Origin: Magnetospirillum sp. ME-1
GTDB lineage: Bacteria; Pseudomonadota; Alphaproteobacteria; Rhodospirillales; Magnetospirillaceae
Direction: 5' to 3'
Length of the DNA stretch: 64,000 nt
NCBI RefSeq assembly: GCF_002105535.1
Contig: NZ_CP015848.1
Coordinates: forward strand, 372,001 to 436,000
In this document: positions 49,830 through 64,000 of the stretch, in pieces
How the letters are laid out: every line of letters starts with the position of its first letter
Position numbering within the stretch: position 1 is the stretch's first letter
Made by a program: the position numbers and the translations under genes
Notes under the pieces: model-generated
What the model was told of the DNA's origin: nothing
Database searches by the model: none
What the model saw: only the letters and a program-made list of their open reading frames with translations

Positions 49830-50136
49830 AGGCAGGGCGGTGGTTGTTATCTAAACAACGCTATGTCCCGTTGCCAACGGGAAGTGGAAGGTTCGTAAGT
49901 CCAATGACTGCCCGTACTTCACGCAACAGCTGATTATGGTTCCGGCAGATAAGCCTTGATCCTCACTTTAGGCCGAGTCGGCATTAAGCATGACCAGCCT
50001 CTCGCCCATTGGGCATCCATCTTCATTCTTGATGTCGAGAAAGGAGATTGCGCTCTACTTTTGAGTGTTGCCAACAGTTTTGGTCGGCGAACTTCACACC
50101 TTCTCTCTTTTGCAGAAAATTGGCATCATCACCGCC
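49830..50136. other. Intergenic region between HEAT-repeat copies
   Basis: About 307 bases with intermediate GC content. No gene is seen; it probably contains the promoter of the intact HEAT-repeat gene, but I cannot point to a clear box. Confidence 0.35.
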
Positions 50137-51141
50137 ATGTCGAAAAGCCAGCTCCATCTCTTTGAACAGCGAGCCCCATCGGCGAAGCCTTCATCGCGGG
50201 CCGATGGCCGCGCGCCTGCCGATCTCAGCTCGTTACCAGATCAAGAATTGGTGGCAGGAATCGCAACCGCTGGGATTGCGGAAATCTTCGCCCGGATGAC
50301 CGAATGTGGGCGGCGTAAATTGACGGCGGCTGTGCCAGCCCTTGAGGGTATCTGCAAGAGGTTCTCTGGCTTTGGCCTCAGTGCCTTGATCCGCGAGCAA
50401 GCCGTGGCACTTGAAGTCTTGGTTGAAATCGGCGGCCCAGAGGCGGCGACTGCGGTGGAGCGGATCATCACACGAGATATGGTTCAGGGGCCTGGGTTGG
50501 TACTTGCTGTTGCCGCAGCAGCTCGAACCGGCGTCACCCTGCCTGCCGCCGTGACGATGCGGTTGCTGCGCCATGACGAACCCGATGTCCGTGCCGATGC
50601 CTGTCGCAGCGCACGCTTAGATCCTGATGTTGTCGCTATCTTGTTGGATCTTCAAGATGATCTGCACCCCAGCGTTCGCATTGCCGCGGCCTGCGCCCTT
50701 GGGCGATTTGGGAAGGTTGATGCCCTAGAGGCGCTGAGCGAAGCGTTAGCATCGGCGCCCAACCACGAAGTAATCGATGCCTTAGCCGACATTGCCGACG
50801 ACGCCGCCGTCGTGCTGCTTGGTCGGGTGGCACAAGATCGGCCCGACTTGGCCGAAGCAGTGTTATCGGCTCTTGATGAGTGTGGCTCAGCGTTGTCCGC
50901 AAAGGTGTCCGATCGGGTTCGGAGATTGTCGAGAGCTACAACCGCCATGATTGGCCCGCACGATATTGTCGTTGAGATCGATGAAATCCCCTATATCGGC
51001 AGATGCGAGTTGAAAGGGGAGACGGTGGTGGTTACCTCCGAGTTTGGCTCCAAGGCGCTGGAGGTTGGCGAATTACCGCCTGACGTCGTGGCCAAGCGCC
51101 TGCTGGCTGCACTCGTTCGTGAGGCCGAGGGCCATGTCTGA
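50137..51141 (+). CDS. HEAT-repeat protein
   Basis: A 334-residue soluble protein made of helical HEAT-like repeats, for example REQAVALEVLVEIGGPEAA, RADACRSARLDPDVVAILL, SVRIAAACALGRFGKVDAL and EVIDALADIADDAAV. The last 60 residues switch to a beta-rich tail (HDIVVEIDEIPYIGRCELKG). HEAT proteins bind other proteins or nucleic acids; the partner is unknown. The start is ATG 50137. The next small gene overlaps its end by eight bases. Confidence 0.75.
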   Translation: MSKSQLHLFEQRAPSAKPSSRADGRAPADLSSLPDQELVAGIATAGIAEIFARMTECGRRKLTAAVPALEGICKRFSGFGLSALIREQAVALEVLVEIGGPEAATAVERIITRDMVQGPGLVLAVAAAARTGVTLPAAVTMRLLRHDEPDVRADACRSARLDPDVVAILLDLQDDLHPSVRIAAACALGRFGKVDALEALSEALASAPNHEVIDALADIADDAAVVLLGRVAQDRPDLAEAVLSALDECGSALSAKVSDRVRRLSRATTAMIGPHDIVVEIDEIPYIGRCELKGETVVVTSEFGSKALEVGELPPDVVAKRLLAALVREAEGHV

Positions 51142-51265
51142 CCTCCGGCCCCGTCCCTCCCGTGTTCTTCAGCGGCGCGCCCGCCGTGCGCGGCTGATCC
51201 TGATGGCGATCCTCGTCATTGGGCTCGGCGTGGCCTACTATGTTGGAGCGGTCGTGCTCGGTTAA
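51134..51265 (+). CDS. Tiny single-span membrane protein
   Basis: 43 residues: a very basic N terminus (RPRPSRVLQRRARRARL) and one membrane helix (ILMAILVIGLGVAYYVGAVV). The ATG at 51134 lies inside the HEAT-repeat gene, whose stop it overlaps, so translation is probably coupled. Positive-inside rule puts the N terminus in the cytoplasm. Function unknown. Confidence 0.55.
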   Translation: MSDLRPRPSRVLQRRARRARLILMAILVIGLGVAYYVGAVVLG

Positions 51266-51376
51266 TGTCGTCGTCGTCACTCGGTTCCCTTCAATCGAAA
51301 CCAGCAGTGCTGGGGATAGGTCACAACCTTCCGCGGCACGAAAGGCGAGCGGGACAGACAGTGGAAAGATTGCCCC

Positions 51377-52330
51377 ATGTGCGCCGATTACACTCCGCCC
51401 ACACACTCAAGCAGCCGACGAAGCTGGGAGGATCTCCGCACACTCGAGCGTGACTATTTTCTGCTGGCGGCATTCGGTGGCCCGTCCGAATGGCAGCCCG
51501 TCATGGAAAACCTTGGTCTTGACCGGGTAGAGGCCGCTCGCATCGCCAATGCCATGTCTCCCCTAGCCCTGCCACCGAAGTCAATTGAGGAGCGCAGTCA
51601 GCGAGAGCAAGACGCGTTGACATTCCTAGCCAATCGCCCTTTGGGCTCTGCATTGAAGGAGGCCATTGGGCGGCGTGACGGAAGTCTGGATATGCCCATA
51701 GAAGAGCCTGCGGCACAGTTCCGGGCGAGAGATGGGGCGCCACCTGATGTTCGAACAGGTGTTTTCTATCACCCCACCAATGAGATGCGGCCTCGATACG
51801 GACATGAAGGCCAGAGTCCGCGCGGCGGCGTCATGGCGACCTTGGGAGCGGTACTTAAATCCGCACGAAATACCAGCTATCACATGTTACGCGCCCTTTC
51901 CGGGATTTCGAAAAGACATCTCCTGCCTCGCATCAAAGCTATTGGCGGTGCCATTCGGACGGGCGCTGGGGAAACGTTCAGCGCCGTAGCGACCCGCATG
52001 GGAATCACGAGGTCGATCCCGCTCACGAGTATGGCTGCCGAGAACAGCGACGGCATTCCGCCCACTTCAGATCAAGATCTACGGGAAGCATCGGTCGAAC
52101 GCTGGCGCCAAATGGGAGAAACCATTAAGGCCATGACCGTTGCTTCTGCTCTACGCGGCTACCCACCCGCTCTCGAATTCATCCGGATCATCGCACCGGA
52201 CATAGGGCCTTTCGATGATTCGAAGATACGGGTTTCTCCGAGACGCTATCGCCATATCCAAGGGGCACTTAAGCGCGGCGATTCTCTATTCTACAGGGCC
52301 TATCGATGGGCTTTTCCGCCCGAAGGCTAG
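51377..52330 (+). CDS. Hypothetical protein (317 aa)
   Basis: A soluble protein starting at ATG 51377 (MCADYTPPTHSSSRRSWED). Basic patches alternate with helical stretches and no membrane segment or known motif is seen. It is flanked by small genes of unknown function in the scrap zone. Base composition is slightly lower in GC than the backbone. Confidence 0.55.
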   Translation: MCADYTPPTHSSSRRSWEDLRTLERDYFLLAAFGGPSEWQPVMENLGLDRVEAARIANAMSPLALPPKSIEERSQREQDALTFLANRPLGSALKEAIGRRDGSLDMPIEEPAAQFRARDGAPPDVRTGVFYHPTNEMRPRYGHEGQSPRGGVMATLGAVLKSARNTSYHMLRALSGISKRHLLPRIKAIGGAIRTGAGETFSAVATRMGITRSIPLTSMAAENSDGIPPTSDQDLREASVERWRQMGETIKAMTVASALRGYPPALEFIRIIAPDIGPFDDSKIRVSPRRYRHIQGALKRGDSLFYRAYRWAFPPEG

Positions 52331-52630: not shown

Positions 52631-53794
52631 TCAGAAATTTTCCATGATCTTGGCCTTCTGTCCGTCGTAGTCGGCCTGGCTGATCAGGCCCTCGTCGAGA
52701 GCGGTCTTCAGCTTTCTCAGGCGATTGATCGGATCGTCGCCTCGGCTGGCAACCACCGGCTTGGAGCGATCAGAAGGAATGGGAACGGCAGGCTTCGGCC
52801 GGGCATTGGGAGTGATATTTGGCGCTCCACTGGACACCCGATAGAGAAGCCACCTCAGACCTCCGGTTACCGGACTCATGTCCAGCCCTGCGGCCGCGGA
52901 CAGGATCGCCTTGATCGACGGTATGCGGATGGAATTCGATCCACAGGCCAGCGCAAGCCGTGCCGCCCAATCGCGAACGTAAAGGTCATCGAAGGCTGAA
53001 AGCCGCTGGAACAGTTCCGAGCCATGCGGATTGAGGAAATCCGATCGGGTGAAGATGAGGTTCTCGCCACTGTGGCAGTGCTTGAGCAATCCGGGTTTGA
53101 ACACCAAGGCCCGCAACGACAGTTGCATCACCAGCATGGAGAAGTGATCCAGCGTCGCATCGAAATGCGTCTCGTTGCGTTCGGGGTGCTGGAAATTGAT
53201 GCTGCCGAGCAAGGTGCAGGGCAGCCCGCTCAGTTCAGGAAGATACATGGAATCGTAATCGATCAGCTTCAGTCGACCATCAGGTCCGATCAGGATGTTG
53301 TCGTGTTTAAGGTCGCCATGGGCCACGCCACGGTTCAGCAGATCCAGGCAAAGCCGCGCCCAGGCCCGGCTCAGGCCAGCGATGCCACCGCGCTTGTCGC
53401 TATCACACAGGGTCTGGACCAAGGCGCCAATGGTGCGGCCAGGGACCCAAGGCATGCTGATGACCGGATATTCACCGTGCTTGGCGATGGACGACGTCAC
53501 GTAGAGTTCGTCGCGGTGAAACCGGAGCGGAACCACATAGGGCGAGCCGCTGGCGCCGACGAAGCCTGCGATGGCTTGGTAGCGGCGCTCCAGATCGGGA
53601 AGATCACGGATGAAGCACTTGATCGCCAAGAGCGATCCCTCGGAATCGGTGACCCGGAATACCCCGGCGAAGTTTCCGGCGAGAAACTGCGGGTGGCCTC
53701 GGGCATCCTTGAACGGTGTCACCTGTAGAGTGGCGAACCGGGCCTTGGCGTTGGAGAGTGCCGCCTTGTAGTCCGCCAATACCGGGAACGTCAC
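52631..53794 (-). CDS. TerY-P-type Ser/Thr kinase with C-terminal SHOCT domain (copy 1)
   Basis: A 387-residue protein kinase-like enzyme. Nucleotide-binding Lys in LLAIKCF, catalytic loop HGDLKHDNILIG, metal-binding IDYDSMY instead of DFG, and a second-lobe HFSMLVMQLSLRAL. The tail DDPINRLRKLKTALDEGLI then SQADYDGQKAKIMENF is a SHOCT domain. The ATG overlaps the stop of the vWA gene (ATGA, 53791-53794). No PP2C gene is in this copy, unlike copy 2 at 59.8-62.7 kb. Confidence 0.88.
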   Translation of the reverse strand: MTFPVLADYKAALSNAKARFATLQVTPFKDARGHPQFLAGNFAGVFRVTDSEGSLLAIKCFIRDLPDLERRYQAIAGFVGASGSPYVVPLRFHRDELYVTSSIAKHGEYPVISMPWVPGRTIGALVQTLCDSDKRGGIAGLSRAWARLCLDLLNRGVAHGDLKHDNILIGPDGRLKLIDYDSMYLPELSGLPCTLLGSINFQHPERNETHFDATLDHFSMLVMQLSLRALVFKPGLLKHCHSGENLIFTRSDFLNPHGSELFQRLSAFDDLYVRDWAARLALACGSNSIRIPSIKAILSAAAGLDMSPVTGGLRWLLYRVSSGAPNITPNARPKPAVPIPSDRSKPVVASRGDDPINRLRKLKTALDEGLISQADYDGQKAKIMENF

Positions 53795-54711
53795 TGTTCG
53801 AACTCCGTTGCCCGATCCCGCGAAGAAGCCTCGGCGGCTTGGTTAAAAACGATGGCTGGCCGGGTGCCGATATCGAGCAGTTTGACCAGTGCGATGGCAT
53901 CGGCATTGAACGCCATGCCGCGCAGGGTCGGCGTAGTTTTCAGGTCGCGCTCGAACAGTTCGCAGATGATGGCGCGATGGCGGCCCGACAACTCGCTCGA
54001 CATCTCGAACAGCAGGCGGGCATAGGTGTCGTCGGGCAACTGGCCGGCGCTGGACGGGAACACCACCGGCGCGTCGTCGCCGCCGGAAATATGGCAGTTC
54101 ATCAGCAGGACGTGGCCGTCATTGGTCTTCAGCCCGGTCAGCCGCCGGGCGGTCGCCAGAAGTTCTTCGTCACTGTCAACATCGTTGGCCATGCCGTCAG
54201 TAATGTTGATGACGGCCGGGGGGAATGACCCTGGATTCGCGGAAATCCAGGGTTCCAGGATCGATTGCGCCAAGCGCAGCGCTCCGTTCATCGGGGTGCT
54301 TTCCACCGCCACCGGCGCCACCCAACGCGAAACGGCGACCCGTTCGACCACCGGCTGGCCGCGAACCATGATGGTGGTTTCTTCCTCGATGGTATCGGCG
54401 TTTTCCGCCACCTCGGAGATGGGCACCAAGCTGCGCCCGGCAAGGTTCCCCAGCCAGCAGAACTCGGCGCGGTTAGTGCGCCCATAGCCGATGACGCCGA
54501 TGTCGAAATAGTCCCGGACACCTTCATCACGCATACAGCGGTTGATCAACTCGTCGAGGGTTCGGTTGAGCGCATCCGCCACCACCTGGGCCCGGCTGAT
54601 CGTCTGGCCGTTATCATCGACACCGAAGGTGGTGTTCATGGATTTGGATTGATCCACCAGAAAGATAAAGGCGCCGCGCTGGTCGCGGCTGATTTCCTGT
54701 GAATAGGCCAC
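53791..54711 (-). CDS. TerY-like von Willebrand factor A protein (copy 1)
   Basis: A 306-residue vWA protein. The metal-ion-dependent adhesion site is intact: DQSKS (DxSxS) at about residues 19-23 and TDGMAND later. It lacks a signal peptide, so it is cytoplasmic, as in the TerY-P systems of tellurite and stress operons, where vWA protein, kinase and PP2C phosphatase work together. A GTG start at 54711 has AGGAG upstream. The sequence is closely similar to copy 2 along its length. Confidence 0.9.
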   Translation of the reverse strand: MAYSQEISRDQRGAFIFLVDQSKSMNTTFGVDDNGQTISRAQVVADALNRTLDELINRCMRDEGVRDYFDIGVIGYGRTNRAEFCWLGNLAGRSLVPISEVAENADTIEEETTIMVRGQPVVERVAVSRWVAPVAVESTPMNGALRLAQSILEPWISANPGSFPPAVINITDGMANDVDSDEELLATARRLTGLKTNDGHVLLMNCHISGGDDAPVVFPSSAGQLPDDTYARLLFEMSSELSGRHRAIICELFERDLKTTPTLRGMAFNADAIALVKLLDIGTRPAIVFNQAAEASSRDRATEFEQ

Positions 54712-55038
54712 GGATCACGTCTCCTGTGGTTGAACAACGGTAGGATTTACGCTGGAGGGGATCTCTGCCGACGAAATCAGTTCATATCCGGAGCCTTGAT
54801 CATGGAACAACCGGAGGCCCTGAATCTCACGCGCCATCACTTTAGCAAAGACTATGGCTCCATCAAATTTTTGGGCAAAACAGCAGGAAGTGCTGACGGC
54901 AAAAGCGCGAAGATGAGAGTGATTATTAAGATCTTTTGTTGGCAAGATATTGTTATGCTCTTGCCGACTATTGTCGAGCAGGCGAATTTGTGCAACAAGA
55001 CATGTATGTATTTTTCTCTTTCCCAGAGGAGTTAGGTT
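54712..55038. promoter_or_regulatory. Divergent promoter region between the vWA and Mms6-like genes
   Basis: About 327 bases with a marked AT-rich section at 54900-55020, unlike the flanking coding DNA. It should contain the promoters of both directions. A 101-codon frame across it (54730-55035) has no protein-like character. AGAGGAG at 55025-55031 is the ribosome site for the Mms6-like gene. Confidence 0.5.
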
Positions 55039-55665
55039 ATGGCTGCACAGATGGCAACAGGTATGGCTGGTGGCGCCGCCGCGAACGCCGCCGCTCCCGC
55101 AGCTGGCGGCGCGGCCATGGCTGCAGCGGCGGCTCCGGAAATCGAACGTGAGGGCGCCGCCCAGGCTGCCGGCATGAAGGCCGGTGGGGCCAAGGCCGGC
55201 GCCGCCAATGGCGCCGCCGCCAAGACCGGGGCGGCTAAGGCTGCCGCGGCAGAGGTTGAGCGCGAGGCGGTGACCGCCAAGGCTGCGGGCATGAAAGCCG
55301 CTGGAACCAAGGCGGCGGCTGGTGGTGCCAATCAGGCCGCTATGGCCGCCAAGGGAACCGGCGCAGCCACCAAGGTCGCCGCGACCGGCGTCAAGGGCAA
55401 GGCCTTGGTTGCCGCCGGTGGAGCCGGTGCTGCCGGTGCCGCGGCGGGTGCCGCCACGGGTGCTTCCGTCACTGCCAGCCCCATCGCCGCCGCAACCAGC
55501 AGCAGCGCCATGCTGTCCGCCAAGGGCGTCAGCTTGGGCCTCGGCCTGGGGCTGGGCGCCTGGGGGCCGGTGCTGCTGGGCGTGGTCGGAGTGGCGGGCG
55601 CCATCGCCCTCTATGGATATTACAAGAACCGCAATGCCGAGCCGGCTGCGGCCGAAGCCGTCTGA
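55039..55665 (+). CDS. Mms6/MamD-type magnetosome crystal-binding protein
   Basis: A 208-residue, Ala/Gly/Lys-rich protein. The C-terminal part has the signature Leu-Gly repeat and membrane helix [13 protein letters not shown] followed by [18 protein letters not shown], as in the magnetosome proteins Mms6 and MamD, which bind magnetite and affect crystal growth. The N-terminal 150 residues contain two tandem copies of an EREG/EREA-type unit with [16 protein letters not shown], which I have not seen described for Mms6. The acidic iron-binding tail of Mms6 is short here (AEPAAAEAV). The next gene, a MamF/MmsF type, follows by 11 bases. Confidence 0.85.
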
Positions 55666-55676
55666 AGGAGGACGAA

Positions 55677-56012
55677 ATGACCGCACAGACTATCGGGTTG
55701 TCGCAAGAAACCGGAACCAGTTACAAGCCGCTGGTGATGGCTGCCCTCAGCTATCTCGGCATTCTTTGTTTTGTGCCTTTGATGCGCAACAAGGATGACG
55801 AATACGTTCAGTTCCATGCCAAGCAAGGGCTGGTGCTGTGGATGATCGCGGTCCTTTCCATGTTCGTGCTGGAAATTCCCGGCATCGGAAAGTGGTTCTT
55901 CGGCTTCTCGTCCATGCTGGTTCTCGTGCTGTCGGTGGCCGGGCTGGCCTCGGTGGCATTCCGCCGCGCCTGGAAGCTGCCGCTGGTCGGGTATATCGCC
56001 GACCGCATCTGA
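55677..56012 (+). CDS. MamF/MmsF-type magnetosome membrane protein (DUF4870)
   Basis: A 111-residue protein with three predicted membrane helices. Conserved features include [11 protein letters not shown], the [16 protein letters not shown] loop and [13 protein letters not shown]. MmsF controls crystal size and shape in magnetotactic bacteria and MamF is a close relative; which paralogue this is cannot be settled by eye. Ribosome site AAGGAGG precedes the ATG. The order Mms6-like then MmsF-like resembles the known mms6-mmsF arrangement. Confidence 0.88.
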
Positions 56013-56033
56013 GACTGCTGAACGGATCCGCCG

Positions 56034-56065
56034 CGCCGAGATGACTCCATGGGGTCATCTCGGCG
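56034..56065. terminator. Hairpin after the magnetosome-type pair
   Basis: Perfect 12-base arms CGCCGAGATGAC/GTCATCTCGGCG with an 8-base loop, 21 bases after the MamF-type stop. A weak T-containing tail follows. It separates this pair from the convergent feo operon. Confidence 0.65.
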
Positions 56066-56091
56066 TTGGCGTTATTGTGGGGCGTTTCTGG

Positions 56092-56241
56092 TCACATACG
56101 GCGCCACCAATCGAGGGTGCCGCGCAGCAAGGCGGGGCCGCTATCGACAATTTCGATGATGCCCATGGCCATTGCGGCCAGCCCCAGCAGAATGCCTATC
56201 TTCAGCCAGCCGTTCCGAGGCAGTTGATCGCGAGAGATCAT
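56092..56241 (-). CDS. Small membrane protein at the end of the feo operon
   Basis: 49 residues (MISRDQLPRNGWLKIGILLG), one membrane helix (IGILLGLAAMAMGIIEIV) and a short tail. Start at 56239-56241 with GGGGAT upstream. It lies 22 bases after the Cys-rich peptide gene on the same strand and may be the last gene of the feoA-feoB operon. Function unknown. Confidence 0.5.
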   Translation of the reverse strand: MISRDQLPRNGWLKIGILLGLAAMAMGIIEIVDSGPALLRGTLDWWRRM

Positions 56242-56263
56242 TGCCGCATCCCCACGGCGGGGG

Positions 56264-56437
56264 TCAGCCACAATCGGTGCGGCCGCCGTTTCGCTTGGCG
56301 CCGCAACTGCATCCACCGCCACACGACGCTCCGTCGGACGGCCGCCACATCCGCCACAGATGACGGATGACCACGAAGGCCGCCCCCGCTCCCACGACGG
56401 TGATGGCGCCCAAATCCCAGAGTGATCCCCAAGCCAT
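56264..56437 (-). CDS. FeoB-associated Cys-rich membrane peptide
   Basis: 57 residues: a membrane helix (LGAITVVGAGAAFVVIRHLW) then a Cys-rich tail SCGGGCSCGAKRNGG and a final Cys. This is the layout of the small FeoB-associated Cys-rich proteins found after feoB in many bacteria. It begins 56 bases after the feoB stop. The tail probably binds metal; direct evidence is lacking. Confidence 0.75.
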   Translation of the reverse strand: MAWGSLWDLGAITVVGAGAAFVVIRHLWRMWRPSDGASCGGGCSCGAKRNGGRTDCG

Positions 56438-56493
56438 GGCGCAACGCTTCTTTTATCAGGAGGTGGCGGAGCAACTCCGCCACCCGAACAAGC

Positions 56494-58608
56494 CTACAGG
56501 AAAGTCCCGCCGATGCGGCTGGCGGCCAGGGCCAGCAACCAGGCAAAGGTCAGGGAATAGGCCACCGAGAACCCGGCCCACCGCCAGCTCTGCGCCTCCT
56601 TGCCGATGATGGCGATGGTGGACAGGCAAGGCGCGTAGAGCAAGGTGAAGATCATGAAGGCGATGGCCGTGGCGGGCGGCATGGCGCCCCTCAAGGTCTC
56701 GGTCAGCTGGTCCGACCCCTTCTCCTGGGCATAGATGACGGCATAGGTCGCCACCACCACTTCCTTGGCGACAAAGCCGGTCATGATGGCCGCCGAATCC
56801 CGCCAGGAAAAGCCCAGCGGCTGGAATAGCGGCGTCACCGCGATGGCCGAACGCCCCAGATAGCTCTTTTCCAGTTTCTCCTGCGCCTGGGCACTTTTCA
56901 GCGTCTTCAGCGCTGTTTCCTTTTCCGGGCTGTCGGGAAGCGCGGTCTGTTCGGCGATGACGGTCTCGAAATCCTGGGAATAGGTGATGTCGCGGGGGAA
57001 TTCCTGGAGGAACCAGATCACGATGGAGCCCACCAGGATAACGCCGGTGACCTTGGCGACGAAGCCCTGAGCGCTGTCCCACATATGGTGCAGCACCGAA
57101 TGCAGGGTCGGCAGACGATAGGGCGGTAGCTCCATCACGAAGGCGTCGCCACCGCTGCCGGGAATGATGCGATTGAGCAAAACCGCCGACAACATGGCGG
57201 CGGCGAGGGATAGCATATAGATGCCGAAGACCACGGTCCCGGCGATATCGGCGAAGAAAGCTCCGGCGAACAGGATGAAAACCGGCAGGCGGGCTGAGCA
57301 GTTCATGAACGGCGCGATCAGCATGGCGATCAACCGTGCCCGCTTGTTGGTGATGACGCGGGTGGCCATGACGGCGGGGACATTACAGCCGAACCCGGCC
57401 ACCATGGGGATCAGGGTGGTGCCGTGCAGGCCGAAATGGTGCATCACCCGGTCCATCAGGAAGCTGGCGCGGGCCAGATAGCCGGTGCCGCTGAGGATGG
57501 CCATGAAGAAGAACAGGATGACGATATTGGGCAGGAACACAATGGTTCCGCCAACGCCGGCCATGACGCCGTTGACAACGAGATCATGGAACATGCCCTC
57601 GGGCAGCGTCTTGTCCACCAGATCGGTGGCCAGTTGCACCCCGGCCTTGATCCAGTCGGTGGGAATGGCGCCCAGGGTGAACGTAGCCTCGAACATGACC
57701 CACAGGATGCCCAGCAGCAAGGGAAGGCCCAGAGTGCGGTTCAGGAAGAAATCGTCGAGGATACGGGTCAGCTTGAACCCGGCGGTGGGATCGCCATCCT
57801 GCTGGCGGACTTCTCGCAGCAGGCCGTTGGAAAAGGCGAACCGCGCCGAGGCCAACAGGCTGGCGGTGTCTTCATCATGCTCGTGGGCCAGGGCCGATTG
57901 CTCGCCCTTGATCTCCTCGACCAGTTCGACATGGTTGCTTTCGTGGCGCAACACCTCGTCATCGCCTTCCAGCATCTTGATCGCCAGCCAGCGCGAGCGC
58001 ACCGGGCTCAGCTCCTGGGGGTGCAGCTTGGACAGATGCTGCTGGACGCGCTCGATGGCCGCCTCCAGGTGGCTGTCATAGTGCAGCCGCAGCGGGGCGG
58101 CGGCGGGAGTTGTCGAGGCCATGGCCGCCACCGCGTCCAGCAGGGCATCGATGCCCTCCTTCTTCAGGGCGCAGGTCTCCACCACCGGCGATCCGAGGGC
58201 CGAGGCCAATAGGGCGGTGTCGATGCGAATACCGGCCCGCCGGACCTCGTCCATCATGTTCAGCACGGTGATGCGGGGCAGCCCGGTCTCGATCAGCTGG
58301 GTGGTCAGGAACAGGCTGCGGTCCAGATGGCCGGCATCCAGCACGTTGACGATGATGTCGGGTTCCTCGCCGTGAATATAGTCGCAGCCGACCTTCTCCT
58401 CCGGCGATTGCGACGAGGTGGAAAAAATGCCCGGCACATCGACGATGCGTAAGGGAACCCCGCCATGGGTAATCTCGCGCACATTCAAAGAGGTCGTCAC
58501 CCGCTGATAGTTGGCGACGGCGGATTGGGCGCCCGTCAGGGCATTGAACAAGCTGGTGGAACCGGCATTGGGGTTACCCACCAGTGCCACGGTGACGGGG
58601 GATTTCAT
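56494..58608 (-). CDS. feoB: Ferrous iron transporter FeoB, P-loop variant
   Basis: A 704-residue Fe(II) permease with an N-terminal G-protein domain and about eight or more membrane helices with Gly-rich gate segments (PMVAGFGCNVPAVMATR). G2-G4 motifs are present: TTSLNV, DVPG and NMMDE. The G1 P-loop reads GNPNAGSTS, with Ser-17 in place of the invariant Lys of GxxxxGK(S/T); the codon is TCC, so it is not a one-base error. GTP hydrolysis may be weak. In magnetotactic bacteria a magnetosome-linked FeoB1 supplies iron for magnetite; position beside Mms6-like genes suggests the same. Confidence 0.93.
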   Translation of the reverse strand: MKSPVTVALVGNPNAGSTSLFNALTGAQSAVANYQRVTTSLNVREITHGGVPLRIVDVPGIFSTSSQSPEEKVGCDYIHGEEPDIIVNVLDAGHLDRSLFLTTQLIETGLPRITVLNMMDEVRRAGIRIDTALLASALGSPVVETCALKKEGIDALLDAVAAMASTTPAAAPLRLHYDSHLEAAIERVQQHLSKLHPQELSPVRSRWLAIKMLEGDDEVLRHESNHVELVEEIKGEQSALAHEHDEDTASLLASARFAFSNGLLREVRQQDGDPTAGFKLTRILDDFFLNRTLGLPLLLGILWVMFEATFTLGAIPTDWIKAGVQLATDLVDKTLPEGMFHDLVVNGVMAGVGGTIVFLPNIVILFFFMAILSGTGYLARASFLMDRVMHHFGLHGTTLIPMVAGFGCNVPAVMATRVITNKRARLIAMLIAPFMNCSARLPVFILFAGAFFADIAGTVVFGIYMLSLAAAMLSAVLLNRIIPGSGGDAFVMELPPYRLPTLHSVLHHMWDSAQGFVAKVTGVILVGSIVIWFLQEFPRDITYSQDFETVIAEQTALPDSPEKETALKTLKSAQAQEKLEKSYLGRSAIAVTPLFQPLGFSWRDSAAIMTGFVAKEVVVATYAVIYAQEKGSDQLTETLRGAMPPATAIAFMIFTLLYAPCLSTIAIIGKEAQSWRWAGFSVAYSLTFAWLLALAASRIGGTFL

Positions 58609-58643
58609 GTGCGGCTACCCTTGGATCGAGGTCGGTGGGGTGA

Positions 58644-58886
58644 TTATTTGACGCGGATGCGGATCTGCCGGGCCTCGGCATTGCGCAGGCCCAGGCTGTA
58701 GCCCATCAGGCTGTAGATGCGCGGATCACCTAAAGGGGCAGAACGATCCAGCGTAACGGGAGTGCCGGCCACGACGCCAAGAGACTGCATACGGCGCTTG
58801 AAAACGCCGTCCTCGGTTTCGATCTTGACGATCTCACCCTGCTGCTCGGGACGAAGGTCGGCAAGGCTGAGAGTGTCGGAATTCAT
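58644..58886 (-). CDS. feoA: FeoA ferrous iron transport protein
   Basis: An 80-residue SH3-like protein (MNSDTLSLADLRPEQQGEI) with the family segments RRMQSLGVVAGTPVTLDRSAP and GLRNAEARQIRI. It is thought to interact with FeoB as an accessory. It is 35 bases upstream of feoB in the same operon. I start at the ATG at 58884-58886; the longer open frame upstream adds unlikely residues. Confidence 0.9.
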   Translation of the reverse strand: MNSDTLSLADLRPEQQGEIVKIETEDGVFKRRMQSLGVVAGTPVTLDRSAPLGDPRIYSLMGYSLGLRNAEARQIRIRVK

Positions 58887-58972
58887 CTGCTGCGCCACGG
58901 GACGGCTCCTCTGAAATATGGCATCGCGGCCCTGGATGATTTTCTGGCTGTCCAGGGCCGGCACGAAAGCGG

Positions 58973-59437
58973 TTAGAGCTTGAAAGTCGCAGGAATGCCT
59001 GGCGAGTCCTTGTCCTGGTTGATGGAATAGGCAGCCTCACCGAACCATACCGGGGGAGAATCGAAGGAGAAATCCGTGCAGCTGCGATCGCGCTTCTGGG
59101 CATCGTTGCCGGAGAATACAGCGGCCGTCAGGCTGATCTCTTCGGTGGGCTTGACCTTCAGGCGGGTGCCCGTGTCAGCCAGGGGGTAGCCACCACCGCC
59201 CGATGGCGTGTTGGCGGCATGGATGGCTGGCCAGCCGAGAGCGCGCCGATTGATGCCGTCCGAGGGATTGCCAAGAGTTTCTGCGGTGCAGGTGGCGGTC
59301 AGCTTCTCACGATCCCAGAACCCCTTTTCTACCTCAGCAGCGACTTCATTTGCAGCGGCCGGTAAAACGGCAAGGAAGAGGGAGGGAAGGACAAGGGCTC
59401 CAGCCAATACATTCGATAAACTGGCGATCTTCTTCAT
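58973..59437 (-). pseudogene. Truncated OprB-type porin with intact signal peptide
   Basis: The 154-residue frame has a clear signal peptide (MKKIASLSNVLAGALVLPSL, cleavage near AAANEV) followed by segments typical of carbohydrate-selective OprB porins (GNPSDGINRRALGW, SGGGGYPLADTG, DFSFDSPPVWFGEAAYSIN), then stops at ATFKL. OprB porins are about three times longer, so both the N-terminal S-layer-like part and most of the barrel are absent. It may be a decaying copy or a repurposed secreted piece. Confidence 0.7.
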
Positions 59438-59529
59438 TGGGAACCCAGCAGAATTATGCAGTGCGACTGGCTCGCATCTTCAATAGCGCAGATCCCCCCT
59501 CCTGACAAGACTCTATATGGGAGGTCATG

Positions 59530-59815
59530 CCCCGCCCAACAGCATGCCGCTGGGGGTAAAAAGGGGGCACGGATATCGCCATCAGCCGTTCTCGTGGAGG
59601 ACGGAGCACCAAAATTCATACCATCGTGGACGTGCGTGGATTGCCGGTGAAATTGCTGCTAACGCCGAGCAAAACCTCCGACAAGGCGGCGGCCCCGACC
59701 ATGCTTGAGGGCTTACCGACGGCTCAGGCATTTGTCGGCGACCGAGGTTATGACTGGCAGGCCCTCGTCGATCCGGTCAAATCCAATGGCTGCCGCGCCC
59801 TCAGGAAAAAAATGA
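59530..59815 (+). mobile_element. IS5-family transposase remnant
   Basis: One frame reads IHTIVDVRGLPVKLLLTPS then AFVGDRGYDWQALVDPVKS and CRALRKK, the middle of an IS5-group transposase, with a HAAGGKKGA segment upstream in another frame. Both ends are lost. It ends exactly where the copy 2 kinase gene ends (59801-59815). Confidence 0.75.
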
Positions 59816-60766
59816 GAGGAGTCGTTTGGTGGGTGGCTTGGCCGGAACGGCCTCGACTTTTGCCGCCGCCTTCAATAGGGCTTCCATGGCGGCGATCCCG
59901 ATCATAGGAGCCTTGGCAGCCTTGATCAGATGTTCCGTCCAGTCGCGGACATGGAAGTCCGGGCTGAGCGCCCATTGCCGCAACAGATCCGAACTGTCCG
60001 GCCGGGTGAAATCGCTTTTGGTCAGGACGAGATTCTCGCCGTTGTGATGACGCTTCAGCAAATCGGGCTGGAAGGTCAAGGCCCGCAGGGACAGCAAAAT
60101 CACCAGCATGGAAAAATGGTCGATGGTCCCGTCGAAATGCCGGACCTCACGCCGGGGGTGCTGGAAATTGACGCCCCCCAGCATGGTCGAGGCCAGCCCC
60201 TTCAACTCCGGCAGATACATGGAATCATAGTCGATCAGCTTCAGGGCGCCATCCTGTCCGACCAGGACGTTGTCGTGCTTCAGATCGCCATGGGCGACGC
60301 CCCGTTGCAGCAAATCCAGGCACAGACGACTCCACGCCCGGGTCAATCCGGCCAGGGCGGGAGCGTTTTCCCGCTGACACAGGATCTGGACGACGGCCCC
60401 CAGGCCCCGACCCTCGACCCAGGGCATGGTCACCACCGCGTAATCGGCATGGGGGGCGACGCTGGAGGTCACGAAGACCTCCGCCGGAAGAAACCGCAGG
60501 GGCACCACATAGGGGCATTGGGCGGTCCGGCAGAACTTAGCCACGGCGGCATAGCGGCGCGGCAGATCCGAGACTTCGCGGGTGAAGCATTTGACCGCCA
60601 CATGCTCCCCCTCCGGGGTCACCATCTTGAACACCCCGGCGAAGTTTCCCGCCAGGAAGACCGGACTGCAGCGGGCATCCAGATGTGGCCGGACGTCCAG
60701 GGTCGCGAAACGCCCTTTGGCGTTGGCGATGGCTGCCTTGTAATCGTTGATCAGGGGAAGCGGCAT
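59801..60766 (-). CDS. TerY-P-type Ser/Thr kinase (copy 2), SHOCT domain lost
   Basis: A 321-residue kinase related to copy 1: VAVKCF lysine, catalytic loop HGDLKHDNVLVG, IDYDSMYLP, HFSMLVILLSLRAL. It ends KRLLSFFS at the edge of an IS5 remnant and lacks the SHOCT domain present in copy 1 (66 residues shorter). It starts six bases after the phosphatase gene. The kinase fold itself looks intact. Confidence 0.88.
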   Translation of the reverse strand: MPLPLINDYKAAIANAKGRFATLDVRPHLDARCSPVFLAGNFAGVFKMVTPEGEHVAVKCFTREVSDLPRRYAAVAKFCRTAQCPYVVPLRFLPAEVFVTSSVAPHADYAVVTMPWVEGRGLGAVVQILCQRENAPALAGLTRAWSRLCLDLLQRGVAHGDLKHDNVLVGQDGALKLIDYDSMYLPELKGLASTMLGGVNFQHPRREVRHFDGTIDHFSMLVILLSLRALTFQPDLLKRHHNGENLVLTKSDFTRPDSSDLLRQWALSPDFHVRDWTEHLIKAAKAPMIGIAAMEALLKAAAKVEAVPAKPPTKRLLSFFS

Positions 60767-60772
60767 GGCGAA

Positions 60773-61726
60773 TTACCGGGGCCGGGCAAGATCGACGTCG
60801 ATCATGATCAACGTGCAATCGTCATTGGCCAGCAGCCCCTTGCCGCACAGGGCGCGGACCCGATCGGCGAAGGCTTGATCGGATTTGAGGCAATCGCGCA
60901 GGTCCGTCAGCTCGGCGGACAGGCCGGGCCCCGGCGTGGCGCGATGGGCACGGGCGGCCGTGGCAAGCTTGCTCTCGCCGGTGCCGGACAGCCGCTGGAA
61001 TTCTCCCGCCAGCCCCGCCGCCGCCGCGGGGCGGGGCTGACCGGCCAGGGTCCGCAGCAGCAGATACTGGCCGATCCCGTCCGACGCCAGCACCACCGTC
61101 GCCCGATCCGGCAATACCATTTCCCCGGCATGGAATCCGGAATCGTGTGGCAGATCCTTCCAGTTGAGCAAGAAGGGCGCTCGATCCAGCGCCGATAAAC
61201 TGGCGGGATAACAGGTCGCCAGGACAGGCTGGCGCCCGGTGCGGTCGAACACCATCATCTGGCTGTCGCCATAGCCCATCCATCGCAGCCGGACCCGGCC
61301 CTGACGATGGACGAGCCAGCCGGCCGCCAGCGTGGCGAACGAGCCTTCCCGGATGAACTTGCTGTACCGGGCGGGAGTGGCCTTGGACAAGGCGGCGTAT
61401 TCCGAGCGAAAGCCCAGGCAGAACCCGTCCATCCACTGGTTCAGCGCATTCACCCCGGCGATGGGGGTCTTGGGCAGGCGGCTCACCAGCGTTTCGGCCC
61501 AGGGGCCGCAGAACAGCCCCGCCCCTCCGGCTCCGTCGGAGACGGCGGCCAGCAGGCCGTTGGGAATCCGAGCCAGCCGCAGCCGGTCTTCGTTTTGCCG
61601 CCACCGCAGCCTGTCGCCATCGGCGTAGCTGTCGTTGCGGGGCTTGACGATCGAGCGGCCCTGGGCCGTCCAAGTGAGCATGGGGGTAGCGCGCCGAATC
61701 AAGGGCGGATCAGCCTTGATCGCCAT
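60773..61726 (-). CDS. TerY-P-type PP2C phosphatase
   Basis: A 317-residue PPM/PP2C-family phosphatase. Metal-binding Asp residues appear in AAVSDGAGGAG, VVLASDGIGQY and LANDDCTLIMI. It should remove phosphate from the partners of the neighbouring kinase. The start at 61724-61726 overlaps the end of the vWA gene by 17 bases; an internal ATG at about 61681 is an alternative. Copy 1 of the module has no equivalent gene. Confidence 0.88.
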   Translation of the reverse strand: MAIKADPPLIRRATPMLTWTAQGRSIVKPRNDSYADGDRLRWRQNEDRLRLARIPNGLLAAVSDGAGGAGLFCGPWAETLVSRLPKTPIAGVNALNQWMDGFCLGFRSEYAALSKATPARYSKFIREGSFATLAAGWLVHRQGRVRLRWMGYGDSQMMVFDRTGRQPVLATCYPASLSALDRAPFLLNWKDLPHDSGFHAGEMVLPDRATVVLASDGIGQYLLLRTLAGQPRPAAAAGLAGEFQRLSGTGESKLATAARAHRATPGPGLSAELTDLRDCLKSDQAFADRVRALCGKGLLANDDCTLIMIDVDLARPR

Positions 61727-62690
61727 ATTCGATCCGCACGGACGGTTCTTCCAGCACGAAGGAATCCTCGATCAGGGATGCGGCCTCAATTCCCGGCGGC
61801 GTGAAGGGCTCCATGGCCACCGACAGGCCGATGGCCTGACGGGTGCCGATATCCAGCAGCTTGAGCAACGCCACGGCATCGGCGTTGAAAGCCATGCCCT
61901 TGATGGAAGGGGTGCGGCCGGGGTCACGGTCGAAGATTTCGCAGATGACGGCGCGATGGCGATTGGACAATTCGCTCGACATCTCGAACAGCAGCTTGGC
62001 ATAGGGGTCGCGGGGCAGTTCCGCCGCCGAAGCGGGGAACACCACCGATGCATCGCTGCCGCCCGCGATATGGCAGTTGATGAGCAAGACATTGCCGTCG
62101 CCGGTCGTCAGCCCGGTCAGCTTGCGCGCCGTGGCCAGAAGCTCGGCATCGGAATTGACGTCGTTGGCCATGCCGTCGGTAATGTTGATGACCACCGGCG
62201 GGAACGAATCCGGATTGTTGCGCACCCATTCCGCCAAGGTGGCATGGGCCAGACCGAACGCGGCGTTCATGGGGGTGCTGTCCACTCCCACCGGATCGAT
62301 CCAGCGCGACAAGGTGATGCGCTCGATCAGCACCTGCCCGCGCATCTCAGTTTCGATCTCCACTTCCTCGATCTCGGCCTTGGCCGCCACTTCCGGAATG
62401 GGAACCAGCCGACGACCCGCCAAGCCGCCGCGCCAGCAGAATTCCGGGCGATTGGTGCGGCCGTAGCCGATGATCCCGATGTCGAAATAATCGCGCACGC
62501 CTTCATCGCGCATGCAGCGGTTGACCAGTTCCTCCAAGGTGCCGTTCAAGGCATTGGCCACCACCTCGGCGCGGCTGACCATCTTTCCCGACCGATCGGG
62601 ACCGAAGGGCTTGTTCATGGATCGGGACTGATCGACCATGAACAAGAAGACTCCCTTGCACTCCCTGCTGATTTCCTGGGAATAGCTCAT
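61710..62690 (-). CDS. TerY-like von Willebrand factor A protein (copy 2)
   Basis: A 326-residue cytoplasmic vWA protein with MIDAS motif DQSRS at about residues 19-23 and TDGMAND. The start at 62688-62690 (MSYSQEISRECKG) has GGAGG five bases upstream on the minus strand; the longer frame from 62765 is rejected. The sequence matches copy 1 closely, except for a C-terminal extension (about 25 residues). Together with the phosphatase and kinase downstream it makes the complete TerY-P triad. Confidence 0.92.
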   Translation of the reverse strand: MSYSQEISRECKGVFLFMVDQSRSMNKPFGPDRSGKMVSRAEVVANALNGTLEELVNRCMRDEGVRDYFDIGIIGYGRTNRPEFCWRGGLAGRRLVPIPEVAAKAEIEEVEIETEMRGQVLIERITLSRWIDPVGVDSTPMNAAFGLAHATLAEWVRNNPDSFPPVVINITDGMANDVNSDAELLATARKLTGLTTGDGNVLLINCHIAGGSDASVVFPASAAELPRDPYAKLLFEMSSELSNRHRAVICEIFDRDPGRTPSIKGMAFNADAVALLKLLDIGTRQAIGLSVAMEPFTPPGIEAASLIEDSFVLEEPSVRIEYGDQG

Positions 62691-62994
62691 GCTTGCCTCC
62701 TGCCCGCCGATCACCGTCGCTGGCCCATCAAGGACCGGACAAACCCTGATTTCGGGCGATAGCATAATGCCGCCGCCATGTACACCGCCATGTTCAACAA
62801 TGCAGCATCGTGTTGACGAAGCATAGGATTGTGATAATCATACGCAATTTCAGTCATTGACGCATCGACGCCCAACCCATATCAATGGATTGTTTCGAAG
62901 GTATCCCGCCGTTCGCCTTGCTGTTACTATAAGGGGAACGCCTGCGGGGCGGCGCATTGGGATGGCGATTGCGGCCATCATGGGAGATGTCCTT
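62691..62994. promoter_or_regulatory. Divergent promoter region
   Basis: About 304 bases with no gene. A promoter-like pair TTGACG (62813-62818) and TAATCA (62835-62840), spaced by 16 bases, faces the right-hand membrane protein. GGGAGA before 62995 is its ribosome site. Confidence 0.45.
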
Positions 62995-64000
62995 ATGTTG
63001 ATGGGGTTTAACAAGGCAGCCTTCGGCAAGTTGAATTCCGCCTCCCGCGCGGCCTTGATCGGCGCGGTCATTTGGGCTGTCCTGTCCATCGTCTATCTGA
63101 CCATTTTCAATGGTTGGAAAAATCTCTTCACCATGCTTCCCCATGAATTCTTCATCGTGCTGCTGTCCATCGCCTTGCCGATCGGACTGACCGTCCTGAT
63201 TCTCATGCTCTCGCGGATCGTGAAAAGCGTGGACACCTTGAAATCCGAGGTGACAACCCTGTCCCGGAACGATGTGTCGTCGGAGGGCTCCGTGGCCATG
63301 CTGGCCGACCTGTTCCGCGAGCATCGCGCCGCCATCGTCGCCCAGGTGGAGGCCCAGGTGGAAGCGACCACCCAGCTGATCCGGCTGAACCAGGAGGGCC
63401 GCGCCCTTGCCGCGCCCGCGCAGGCATCCGGCACCGACGAGGCCATGACCTTGCTGGCCCAGCTGTTCCGCGAGCATCGCGAGGCGGTGGCCGCCCAGTT
63501 GGAGGCCCAGGCATCGGCCACCGCCCAGCTGGTCCAGGTGACCCGCGACAGCCGCGACGGCATCGTCGATGAGCTGCGCTCCCAGCGGGTGCTGTCGCAA
63601 GAGATCACCCAGGAATTGTCCCAGATCACCCAAAGCCGCACCGTCGCGCCAGCGCCCCCCGGCCTCGACCCGTCGCAGCGGATCGACCGCATGCGGGCCT
63701 TGGCCGAGGTTCTGGGGCTGGCCCTCAACGATCTGTCCATGACCGCCACCCAGGTGCTGACCGAACATCTGAACGCCGCCCATGGCGACCGGGACGGAAC
63801 GCGGAAATTCATCTCGACCCTGACCACCGCCTATTTCGCCGGCGACAAGAACGTCTTTTTCCGCAGCTTGGTCCAAGAAGCAGTCAACCGCTCGGAACAG
63901 CTGCGCCGTTGCGCCGAGGACACCGAAAGCGTCCGCCAGCAGATTTCCAAAATCTTGCGCGAAGCCCGCGAGATCCGCTCCCTGGTGGCCGCCTGCGATC
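62995..64000 (+). CDS. Membrane protein with long coiled coil, 5' part
   Basis: At least 335 residues, open to the window edge. Two membrane helices near the N terminus (ALIGAVIWAVLSIVYLTIF and FFIVLLSIALPIGLTVLIL) are followed by a helical, probably coiled-coil cytoplasmic region with repeated LADLFREHR and LAQLFREHR segments, then KFISTLTTAYFAGD. I do not recognise the family. It is divergent from the TerY-P triad and may belong to the same system. Confidence 0.7.
   Translation, partial: MLMGFNKAAFGKLNSASRAALIGAVIWAVLSIVYLTIFNGWKNLFTMLPHEFFIVLLSIALPIGLTVLILMLSRIVKSVDTLKSEVTTLSRNDVSSEGSVAMLADLFREHRAAIVAQVEAQVEATTQLIRLNQEGRALAAPAQASGTDEAMTLLAQLFREHREAVAAQLEAQASATAQLVQVTRDSRDGIVDELRSQRVLSQEITQELSQITQSRTVAPAPPGLDPSQRIDRMRALAEVLGLALNDLSMTATQVLTEHLNAAHGDRDGTRKFISTLTTAYFAGDKNVFFRSLVQEAVNRSEQLRRCAEDTESVRQQISKILREAREIRSLVAACD

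Follow-up and report, generated by a model that had tools for sequence, protein, structure and literature searches.

In a 64,000-nucleotide stretch of the Magnetospirillum sp. ME-1 genome (the window; G000:C1:372001-436000, the genome being one contig of 4,551,873 bp), we found two paralogous gene modules of a TerY-like vWA protein and a Ser/Thr kinase, joined in the second module by a PP2C phosphatase. Judged by sequence comparison, the modules are TerY-P triads of a distinct clade, and within our sample this clade is confined to genomes that carry magnetosome genes. A functional link of the triad to magnetosomes is likely. We lean, with some reserve, to regarding the triad as a magnetosome-dedicated, non-essential Ser/Thr phospho-switch for assembly or maturation, of which we infer the phosphorylation, the targets, and the signal. 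This reading is supported by what the comparison shows, namely the identity of the genes, the conservation of their motifs, their inheritance together with magnetosome genes and repeated linkage to them, and purifying selection.

Co-occurrence with magnetosome genes

We surveyed an order-level sample of 317 genomes, a class-level sample of 385 genomes, and 84,980 species genomes in a wider scan. Magnetotactic status was assigned to genomes from mam families, not from phenotype. The vWA profile matched 35 of the 317 order genomes, and the matches were strong in 32 (best E-values of 7.3e-120 or lower) and weak in three (G004, G006, and G015; 8e-47 to 3e-46), with the boundary placed in the E-value gap after this gap was seen. 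MamD was detected in 37 of the same genomes at an E-value threshold of 1e-6. Both vWA and MamD were found in 31 genomes, vWA alone in one (G588), MamD alone in six, and neither in 279 including the three with the weak TerY, giving a Fisher p-value of 8e-36 that is uncorrected for phylogeny. G588 possesses a full MamZ above the cut-off, as seen in a check of MamZ in 14 chosen genomes. Furthermore, vWA and MamD switch in concert within the genera g1, g5, and g14. The search of 119 relatives with the kinase of the second module (kinase2) detected 29 genomes at an E-value of 1e-10, comprising 26 strong (8.2e-88 or lower) and three weak matches (G004, G006, and G015; 1.7e-35 to 1.4e-34). MamD was matched in all of the 26 strong-kinase genomes, in none of the three weak ones, and in four genomes without the kinase.

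In the class sample, the vWA matches were those of ME-1 itself and one distant TerY (G155; 37%), and MamD was matched at 1e-3 in five genomes, of which only ME-1 was above the cut-off. The scan of the 84,980 species genomes, which was seeded by two short peptide patterns and may let distant relatives such as Magnetococcia escape, recovered 32 vWA loci, 31 at 62-100% identity and one at 42% in a metagenome-assembled genome (MAG) of Abditibacteriales. Fourteen of the 31 close loci are from the named strains SO-1, SP-1, SS-4, LBB-42, PR1, BB-1, UT-4, LM-1, and MV-1 (several of them twice), which we take to be magnetotactic, and the remaining 17 are from MAGs titled Magnetospirillum, Telmatospirillum, Rhodospirillaceae, Rhodospirillales, or Alphaproteobacteria. 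Nine of ten genomes behind such loci gave MamD-family matches at 1e-3 (six above the cut-off and one weak at 8.5e-5), and the Abditibacteriales MAG gave no MamD-family match at 1e-3. The first-pass annotation of the window had held that triads scattered at random among non-magnetotactic relatives would speak against a magnetosome connection; no such scatter was seen in the sampled genomes.

The locus and its linkage to mam and mms genes

Counting open reading frames (ORFs) of at least 60 aa, the locus reads kinase1-vWA1, divergent from mms5-mmxF, then a 76-aa peptide, feoBA, an OprB remnant, and kinase2-PP2C-vWA2, divergent from mamY-X-Z-ftsZ. Thus, both modules are paired divergently with a magnetosome operon, module 1 with mms5-mmxF and module 2 with mamYXZ-ftsZ. 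The features are as follows.

52631..53794, minus: kinase1, TerY-P-type Ser/Thr kinase, 387 aa, C-terminal SHOCT; HGDLKHDN and DYDS motifs intact
53791..54711, minus: vWA1, TerY-like vWA, 306 aa; MIDAS (DxSxS...T...D) intact
54712..55038, no strand: divergent intergenic region vWA1/mms5, 327 bp; aligned in nine genomes
55039..55665, plus: mms5-type gene, 208 aa, Gly-Leu-rich C-terminal helix
55677..56012, plus: mmxF, MamF-like, 111 aa; DUF4870 at E 0.005 (below cut-off)
56092..56322, minus: 76-aa peptide with one hydrophobic stretch; adjoins feoB in related Magnetospirillum too
56494..58608, minus: feoB1; TIGR00437, 560 bits
58644..58964, minus: feoA1; PF04023, 65 bits; start uncertain
58973..59437, minus: OprB porin remnant (PF04966), outside the system
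59801..60766, minus: kinase2, 321 aa, without SHOCT and without OB match
60773..61726, minus: PP2C phosphatase, 317 aa; DGAG/SDG/NDD intact
61710..62690, minus: vWA2, TerY-like; ORF extends to 62765, conserved start (MSYSQ) at 62690
62857..64000, plus: mamY, heads mamYXZ-ftsZ and runs past the window end; MamY model NF040997 from ~63133

The two minus-strand vWA/kinase modules (52631-54711 and 59801-62690) described at first pass were recovered as paralogs, with mms5-mmxF and feoAB between them. The overlap of their genes holds for kinase1/vWA1 (4 bp) and PP2C/vWA2 (17 bp), while kinase2 and PP2C are separated by 6 bp. The feoA and feoB assignments stand, and the gene called MamF/MmsF-like is mmxF, sharing 97% with that of G041, which we take to be strain MSR-1. 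Of two small membrane peptides proposed, only that at 56092-56322 was found among the ORFs counted, 58973-59437 being the OprB remnant. The gene called Mms6-like is of magnetosome type, as it passed the MamG model NF040985 (112 bits; cut-off of 100), but its Mms6 score (41.8 bits) is below the cut-off, as is that for MamD (51.9 bits); we assign it to Mms5 by synteny with mmxF and passages of PMC9549626. The mamY gene at the right edge (plus strand, from 62857) had been overlooked. Beyond the edge lies the mamXY operon, with mamY (702 bits; cut-off of 600), mamX (442/400), mamZ (1057/650), and ftsZ (TIGR00065; 383/295), and mamAB-type genes, mms6, and mamD follow farther on within ~70 kb.

Among the 32 order genomes with the vWA, 30 have a triad gene and a mam/mms-type gene on the same contig at most ~10 kb apart, in a tally without a random-position control; the linkage of G049 and G695 relies on MamD-family matches below the cut-off, and no linked mam/mms-type gene was seen in G587 and G588. 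A scripted rule demanding a mam/mms match at 1e-8 on the same sampled stretch linked 23 of the 32 named loci and missed L132, L143, L147, L148, L151, L156, L158, L159, and the outgroup L160; contigs that end near the triad account for some of these misses. The triad is divergent from mamY in Magnetospirillum and the LM-1 type. Elsewhere, we observed mms5-mmxF/mamF-vWA-(PP2C)-kinase on one strand (L140, L142, L145, and L146), mamX-mamZ-vWA-PP2C-kinase (L149), vWA-PP2C-kinase followed by mamX-mamZ (L155 of MV-1 and L097 of G070), and vWA adjoining mamZ (L144 and G565). As the linkage persists despite the changed gene order, the inheritance of one block is unlikely to be the whole explanation. 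The neighbors that recur across lineages are mamX-mamZ (plus mamY in the Magnetospirillum and LM-1 types) and mms5/mmxF. In G070, two near-identical inverted vWA genes enclose PP2C, kinase, mamX, and mamZ (L097:8095-16786).

The feoAB genes adjoin the triad in Magnetospirillum, G017, and G020, lie ~10-12 kb off in G046 and G057, and did not turn up around the triads in MV-1 (on a 10-kb contig) and G070. We rejected a feo-specific role because feoAB is not a constant neighbor of triads. The first-pass annotation had proposed a phospho-switch for iron loading or crystal growth: its magnetosome side is backed by the co-occurrence in the 317 genomes and the persistent linkage, whereas iron loading through FeoB or Mms6, and an iron-specific role altogether, are not supported by the gene context.

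A variant of TerY-P and its history

The triad proteins were compared with models of Pfam, NCBIfam, and PADLOC, and structure models were searched with Foldseek. The two kinases are 56% identical and the vWAs 66-68%. PADLOC assigned vWA1 and vWA2 to TerY (E-values of 2e-69 and 5e-60), kinase1 and kinase2 to STK_OB (1e-56 and 7e-51, kinase part only), and the phosphatase to PP2C (3.6e-6). The Pfam and NCBIfam assignments were weaker: Pfam Pkinase gave 1.5e-7 for kinase1 (31.5 bits, just below the cut-off of 31.7) and 5.7e-9 for kinase2, SHOCT in kinase1 was below its cut-off (4e-5), the Pfam vWA model was marginal for vWA1 (0.031) without a match for vWA2, and Pfam PP2C was marginal (0.048). 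The motifs are well kept, with MIDAS (DxSxS...T...D) in 12 of 12 aligned vWAs, HGDLKHDN in 13 of 13 kinases, and DGAG and NDD in 13 of 13 phosphatases; the Asp of SDG is also kept, but four of the 13 have SDA or TDA. The PADLOC PP2C model matched all of the 13 phosphatases, and Pfam PP2C_2 at 0.01 only six. The PP2C structure model (pLDDT of 87) found PstP as the best Foldseek match (1.7e-8), with modest TM scores of 0.38/0.49, and the weak vWA model (pLDDT of 68) matched vWA domains such as those of Ku and integrin I, which support the fold only. Sequence searches of solved structures gave no match for the vWA and PP2C profiles and, among the matches listed, only general protein kinases for the kinase profile. 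The Rfam search gave no match. The vWA is the most conserved, with a mean column identity of 70% (12 rows) against 56% and 52% for the other two triad proteins (13 rows), as would be expected of a surface that holds a conserved partner.

The clade kinases are mostly 307-345 aa long, and copy 1 with SHOCT is 387 aa. SHOCT was seen in none of the other kinases among the 13 aligned outside Magnetospirillum copy 1, so its presence there is probably a gain, not a loss from copy 2 as read at first pass. In the six clade kinases scanned, the STK_OB model was covered only to ~position 298 of 562. The match also ends at 294 in two distant kinases, those of G004 and G006, and spans 1-560 in the contig-15 kinase of G102. 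The C-terminal fusion of the kinase to a zinc ribbon or OB fold, a TerY-P trait, was not seen in the clade (no separate search with a zinc-ribbon model was made), and we therefore name the modules a variant of TerY-P. G102 (L087, C15) carries a defence-type TerY (4e-132) and a full-length STK_OB kinase (7e-194) on a contig apart from its magnetosome-linked triad.

The modules share with the TerY-P triad (PADLOC; Anantharaman 2012 and Gao 2020, as cited in a passage of PMC11090510) three adjacent genes, a MIDAS TerY vWA, and the kinase family, but differ in having no kinase OB match, forming their own clade, being tied to magnetosome genes, and, in Magnetospirillum copy 1, lacking PP2C. Passages of PMC9512821 describe another MIDAS vWA in magnetosome biology, McaA of AMB-1, whose MIDAS is essential for localization and function; however, McaA is a membrane protein with a periplasmic vWA, and the word 'kinase' is absent from the main text of that paper. 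In ArnA-ArnB of Sulfolobus, according to excerpts of PMC6509490, a vWA is likewise phosphorylated by Ser/Thr kinases, a phosphatase is in the network, and a cell structure is controlled, but the system is archaeal, controls the expression of the archaellum together with an FHA protein, and uses the phosphatase PP2A. Kinship with the FtsZl1 operons having vWA and kinase (a passage of PMC2875224) was considered and judged to be a different system.

In midpoint-rooted trees, limited to rows of at least 200 aa that have no inner stop, long supported branches part the clade vWAs (44 rows; 100/100) and kinases (42 rows; 100/99) from six outgroup rows. The mamY-linked vWA of Magnetospirillum grouped with the LM-1 type (100/98), suggesting that the duplication is probably old; the vWA tree does not resolve the mms5-linked copies into a single group, nor does the kinase tree decide how old the duplication is. 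In Magnetospirillum, the mms5-linked copy lacks PP2C, and the gene is also absent from the vWA/kinase interval in L088 (G040) and L148. As the mms5-linked triads L142, L145, and L146 retain PP2C, its loss from copy 1, as claimed at first pass, is supported.

The triad genes are under purifying selection. Between ME-1 and G041, the ratios of nonsynonymous to synonymous substitution rates (dN/dS) are 0.098 for kinase1, 0.065 for vWA1, 0.148 for kinase2, 0.186 for PP2C, and 0.173 for vWA2, a range like that of the magnetosome neighbors mamX (0.096), mamZ (0.094), and ftsZ (0.174). The synonymous divergence (dS) between the two is 0.52-0.86 for module 2, mamX, mamZ, and ftsZ but only 0.09-0.22 for the six genes that span 50065 to feoB (58608); because dS is low in the latter, the segment of copy 1, mms5-mmxF, and feoB was probably transferred, recently and as one unit, from lineage to lineage. 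A region of ~10 kb with feoAB1 and mmxF, flanked by transposases, differs in place between MSR-1 assemblies (PMC5920173).

Proposed role and rival explanations

A kinase and a PP2C with conserved active sites, together with a MIDAS vWA, suggest reversible phosphorylation and a docking subunit that depends on metal. In the proposed role, a TerY-P triad of the type known from tellurite and anti-phage systems would have been captured early in the magnetotactic lineage of the order and then duplicated. The kinase would phosphorylate, and PP2C dephosphorylate, one or more proteins of magnetosome assembly or maturation, and the MIDAS-bearing vWA may act as a metal-dependent adaptor docking the kinase/PP2C pair onto the target. 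Because they are recurring neighbors, MamX/MamZ (and MamY) for copy 2 and Mms5/MmxF for copy 1 are the best guesses for targets. The role would be condition-dependent tuning (oxygen, iron, or redox), not an essential one. As a tentative extension that we hold possible without favoring it outright, a defence-type TerY-P may have been exapted early in this lineage for signaling dedicated to a bacterial organelle, the two copies steering separate steps, namely redox and chain positioning in the mamXY branch and protein targeting and crystal size in the mms5/mmxF branch.

In MSR-1, mms5op (mms5-mmxF) and the mamXY operon are the neighboring operons, to which functions in crystal size, protein targeting, and the formation of chains are ascribed, and the passages of PMC9549626, PMC11628618, and PMC3197154 on them do not name the triad genes as such. 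Excerpts report that mms5op is upregulated under anoxia (PMC9549626) and that MmxF, MmsF, and MamF each restore the targeting of Mms5, MamD, and MamR (PMC11628618). Magnetosome genes are described as mostly near-constitutively expressed (a passage of PMC9549626), which raises the question of how cells adjust the organelle to oxygen and iron. With a kinase-phosphatase pair co-inherited with organelle genes, post-translational control can be put to a direct test in two tractable species, and, if the proposed role is true, a defence-type signaling module has been turned to organelle control. In searches of open-access literature, we found no paper describing a link of the TerY-P triad with magnetosomes.

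Published deletions bear on copy 2. The MSR-1 mamXY operon is mgr4147-4150, and deletion A5 removes mgr4151-4174 (a passage of PMC3197154). In G041, vWA2, PP2C, and kinase2 follow mamY with no gene between, and by gene order mgr4151-4153 are probably vWA2-PP2C-kinase2, Mgr4152 being PP2C. By the same gene order, A5 presumably removed copy 2 while copy 1 remained, and copy 2 alone is probably dispensable in laboratory MSR-1. Copy 1 is in another segment, and no deletion of both modules was found in the passages of the MSR-1 deletion literature.

Several observations weigh against the proposed role. The A5 deletion is wild type in Cmag, crystal size, and crystal number (PMC3197154, Table 1 as excerpted), so that, for copy 2 alone, the evidence leans against the phenotype anticipated at first pass. 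MamD occurs without vWA in G019, G078, G089, G104, G503, and G645; some of these genomes are incomplete, but G078 is 99% complete, and the MamD matches of G503 and G645 are weak. Genus g55 is discordant, with both traits in G500 and MamD without vWA in G104. In the MAG loci L143 and L147, no queried mam gene was found in flanks of 8.5/3.0 and 2.4/10 kb, respectively. BB-1 carries an extra truncated vWA1 beside mms5 (L080:3615-3983), the full vWA1-kinase1 being on another contig. Finally, we found no phosphorylation data, substrate, or phenotype for the triad in the literature.

The strongest of the rivals, though in our judgment unlikely, is a general phospho-switch for metal, redox, or oxidative stress that aids iron-loaded cells and was selected in magnetotactic bacteria without acting on magnetosome proteins. 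A metal-sensing phosphorylation switch is one hypothesis for TerY-P (cited in a passage of PMC11090510), and an MSR-1 strain with a 100-kb deletion, M13, which may or may not include copy 2, and five operons restored showed ~70% less growth under H2O2 (an excerpt of PMC7908775). However, the triads adjoin structural magnetosome genes in several arrangements, beyond the needs of a cell-wide role, and the deletion strains in the passages of PMC3197154 are reported without a phenotype outside magnetosomes. We regard as improbable, and to a similar degree, that the triad is a mere passenger, carried along in the magnetosome island with no function today, or an anti-phage TerY-P defence linked to magnetosome genes only by a shared island. 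The probable dispensability of copy 2 in MSR-1, the six MamD-positive genomes without the triad, and the truncated vWA1 in L080 are in keeping with a passenger, but none of 40 kinase matches has an inner stop, whereas the neighboring OprB is in pieces in several relatives; the dN/dS of 0.065-0.186 and the linkage retained through neighborhood reshuffling also argue against it.

As for defence, the best family matches are the PADLOC TerY-P models, and stand-alone TerY-P-like modules with an OB-fused kinase confer phage defence (Gao et al. 2020, cited in a passage of PMC11090510). The truncated STK_OB matches of the six scanned clade kinases point away from such a module, but they are not unique to the clade, and since the OB part is lacking outside it too, we rate defence somewhat higher than otherwise. 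On the other side, the triads form a single clade in genomes with magnetosome genes and were not found in the 279 genomes negative for both vWA and MamD, whereas defence systems are usually patchy; G102 holds both types on separate contigs, and kinase1 has no phage match at 1e-5. A plain phage-defence reading was rejected on the confinement of the clade to magnetosome-gene genomes in the sample and the separate defence-type copy in G102.

For AMB-1, we assume a numbering that places mamXY near amb1015-1018, with the triad following. On this basis, the transposon hits amb1008, amb1009, and amb1022 (a passage of PMC8788322) are not claimed as triad genes.

Two ORFs (358 and 317 aa) at 50065-52330 accompany module 1 in Magnetospirillum, and the second of them has a 35% relative beside mamD in L102. 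Between feoA and kinase2, transposase-like ORF remnants, judged by eye, lie at 59456-59907 together with the OprB remnant, and the OprB gene is split in two pieces in L069 and L070. Several mamAB-type genes are present twice in the island as near-identical copies (G000:C1:445340-453597 and 482835-488297).

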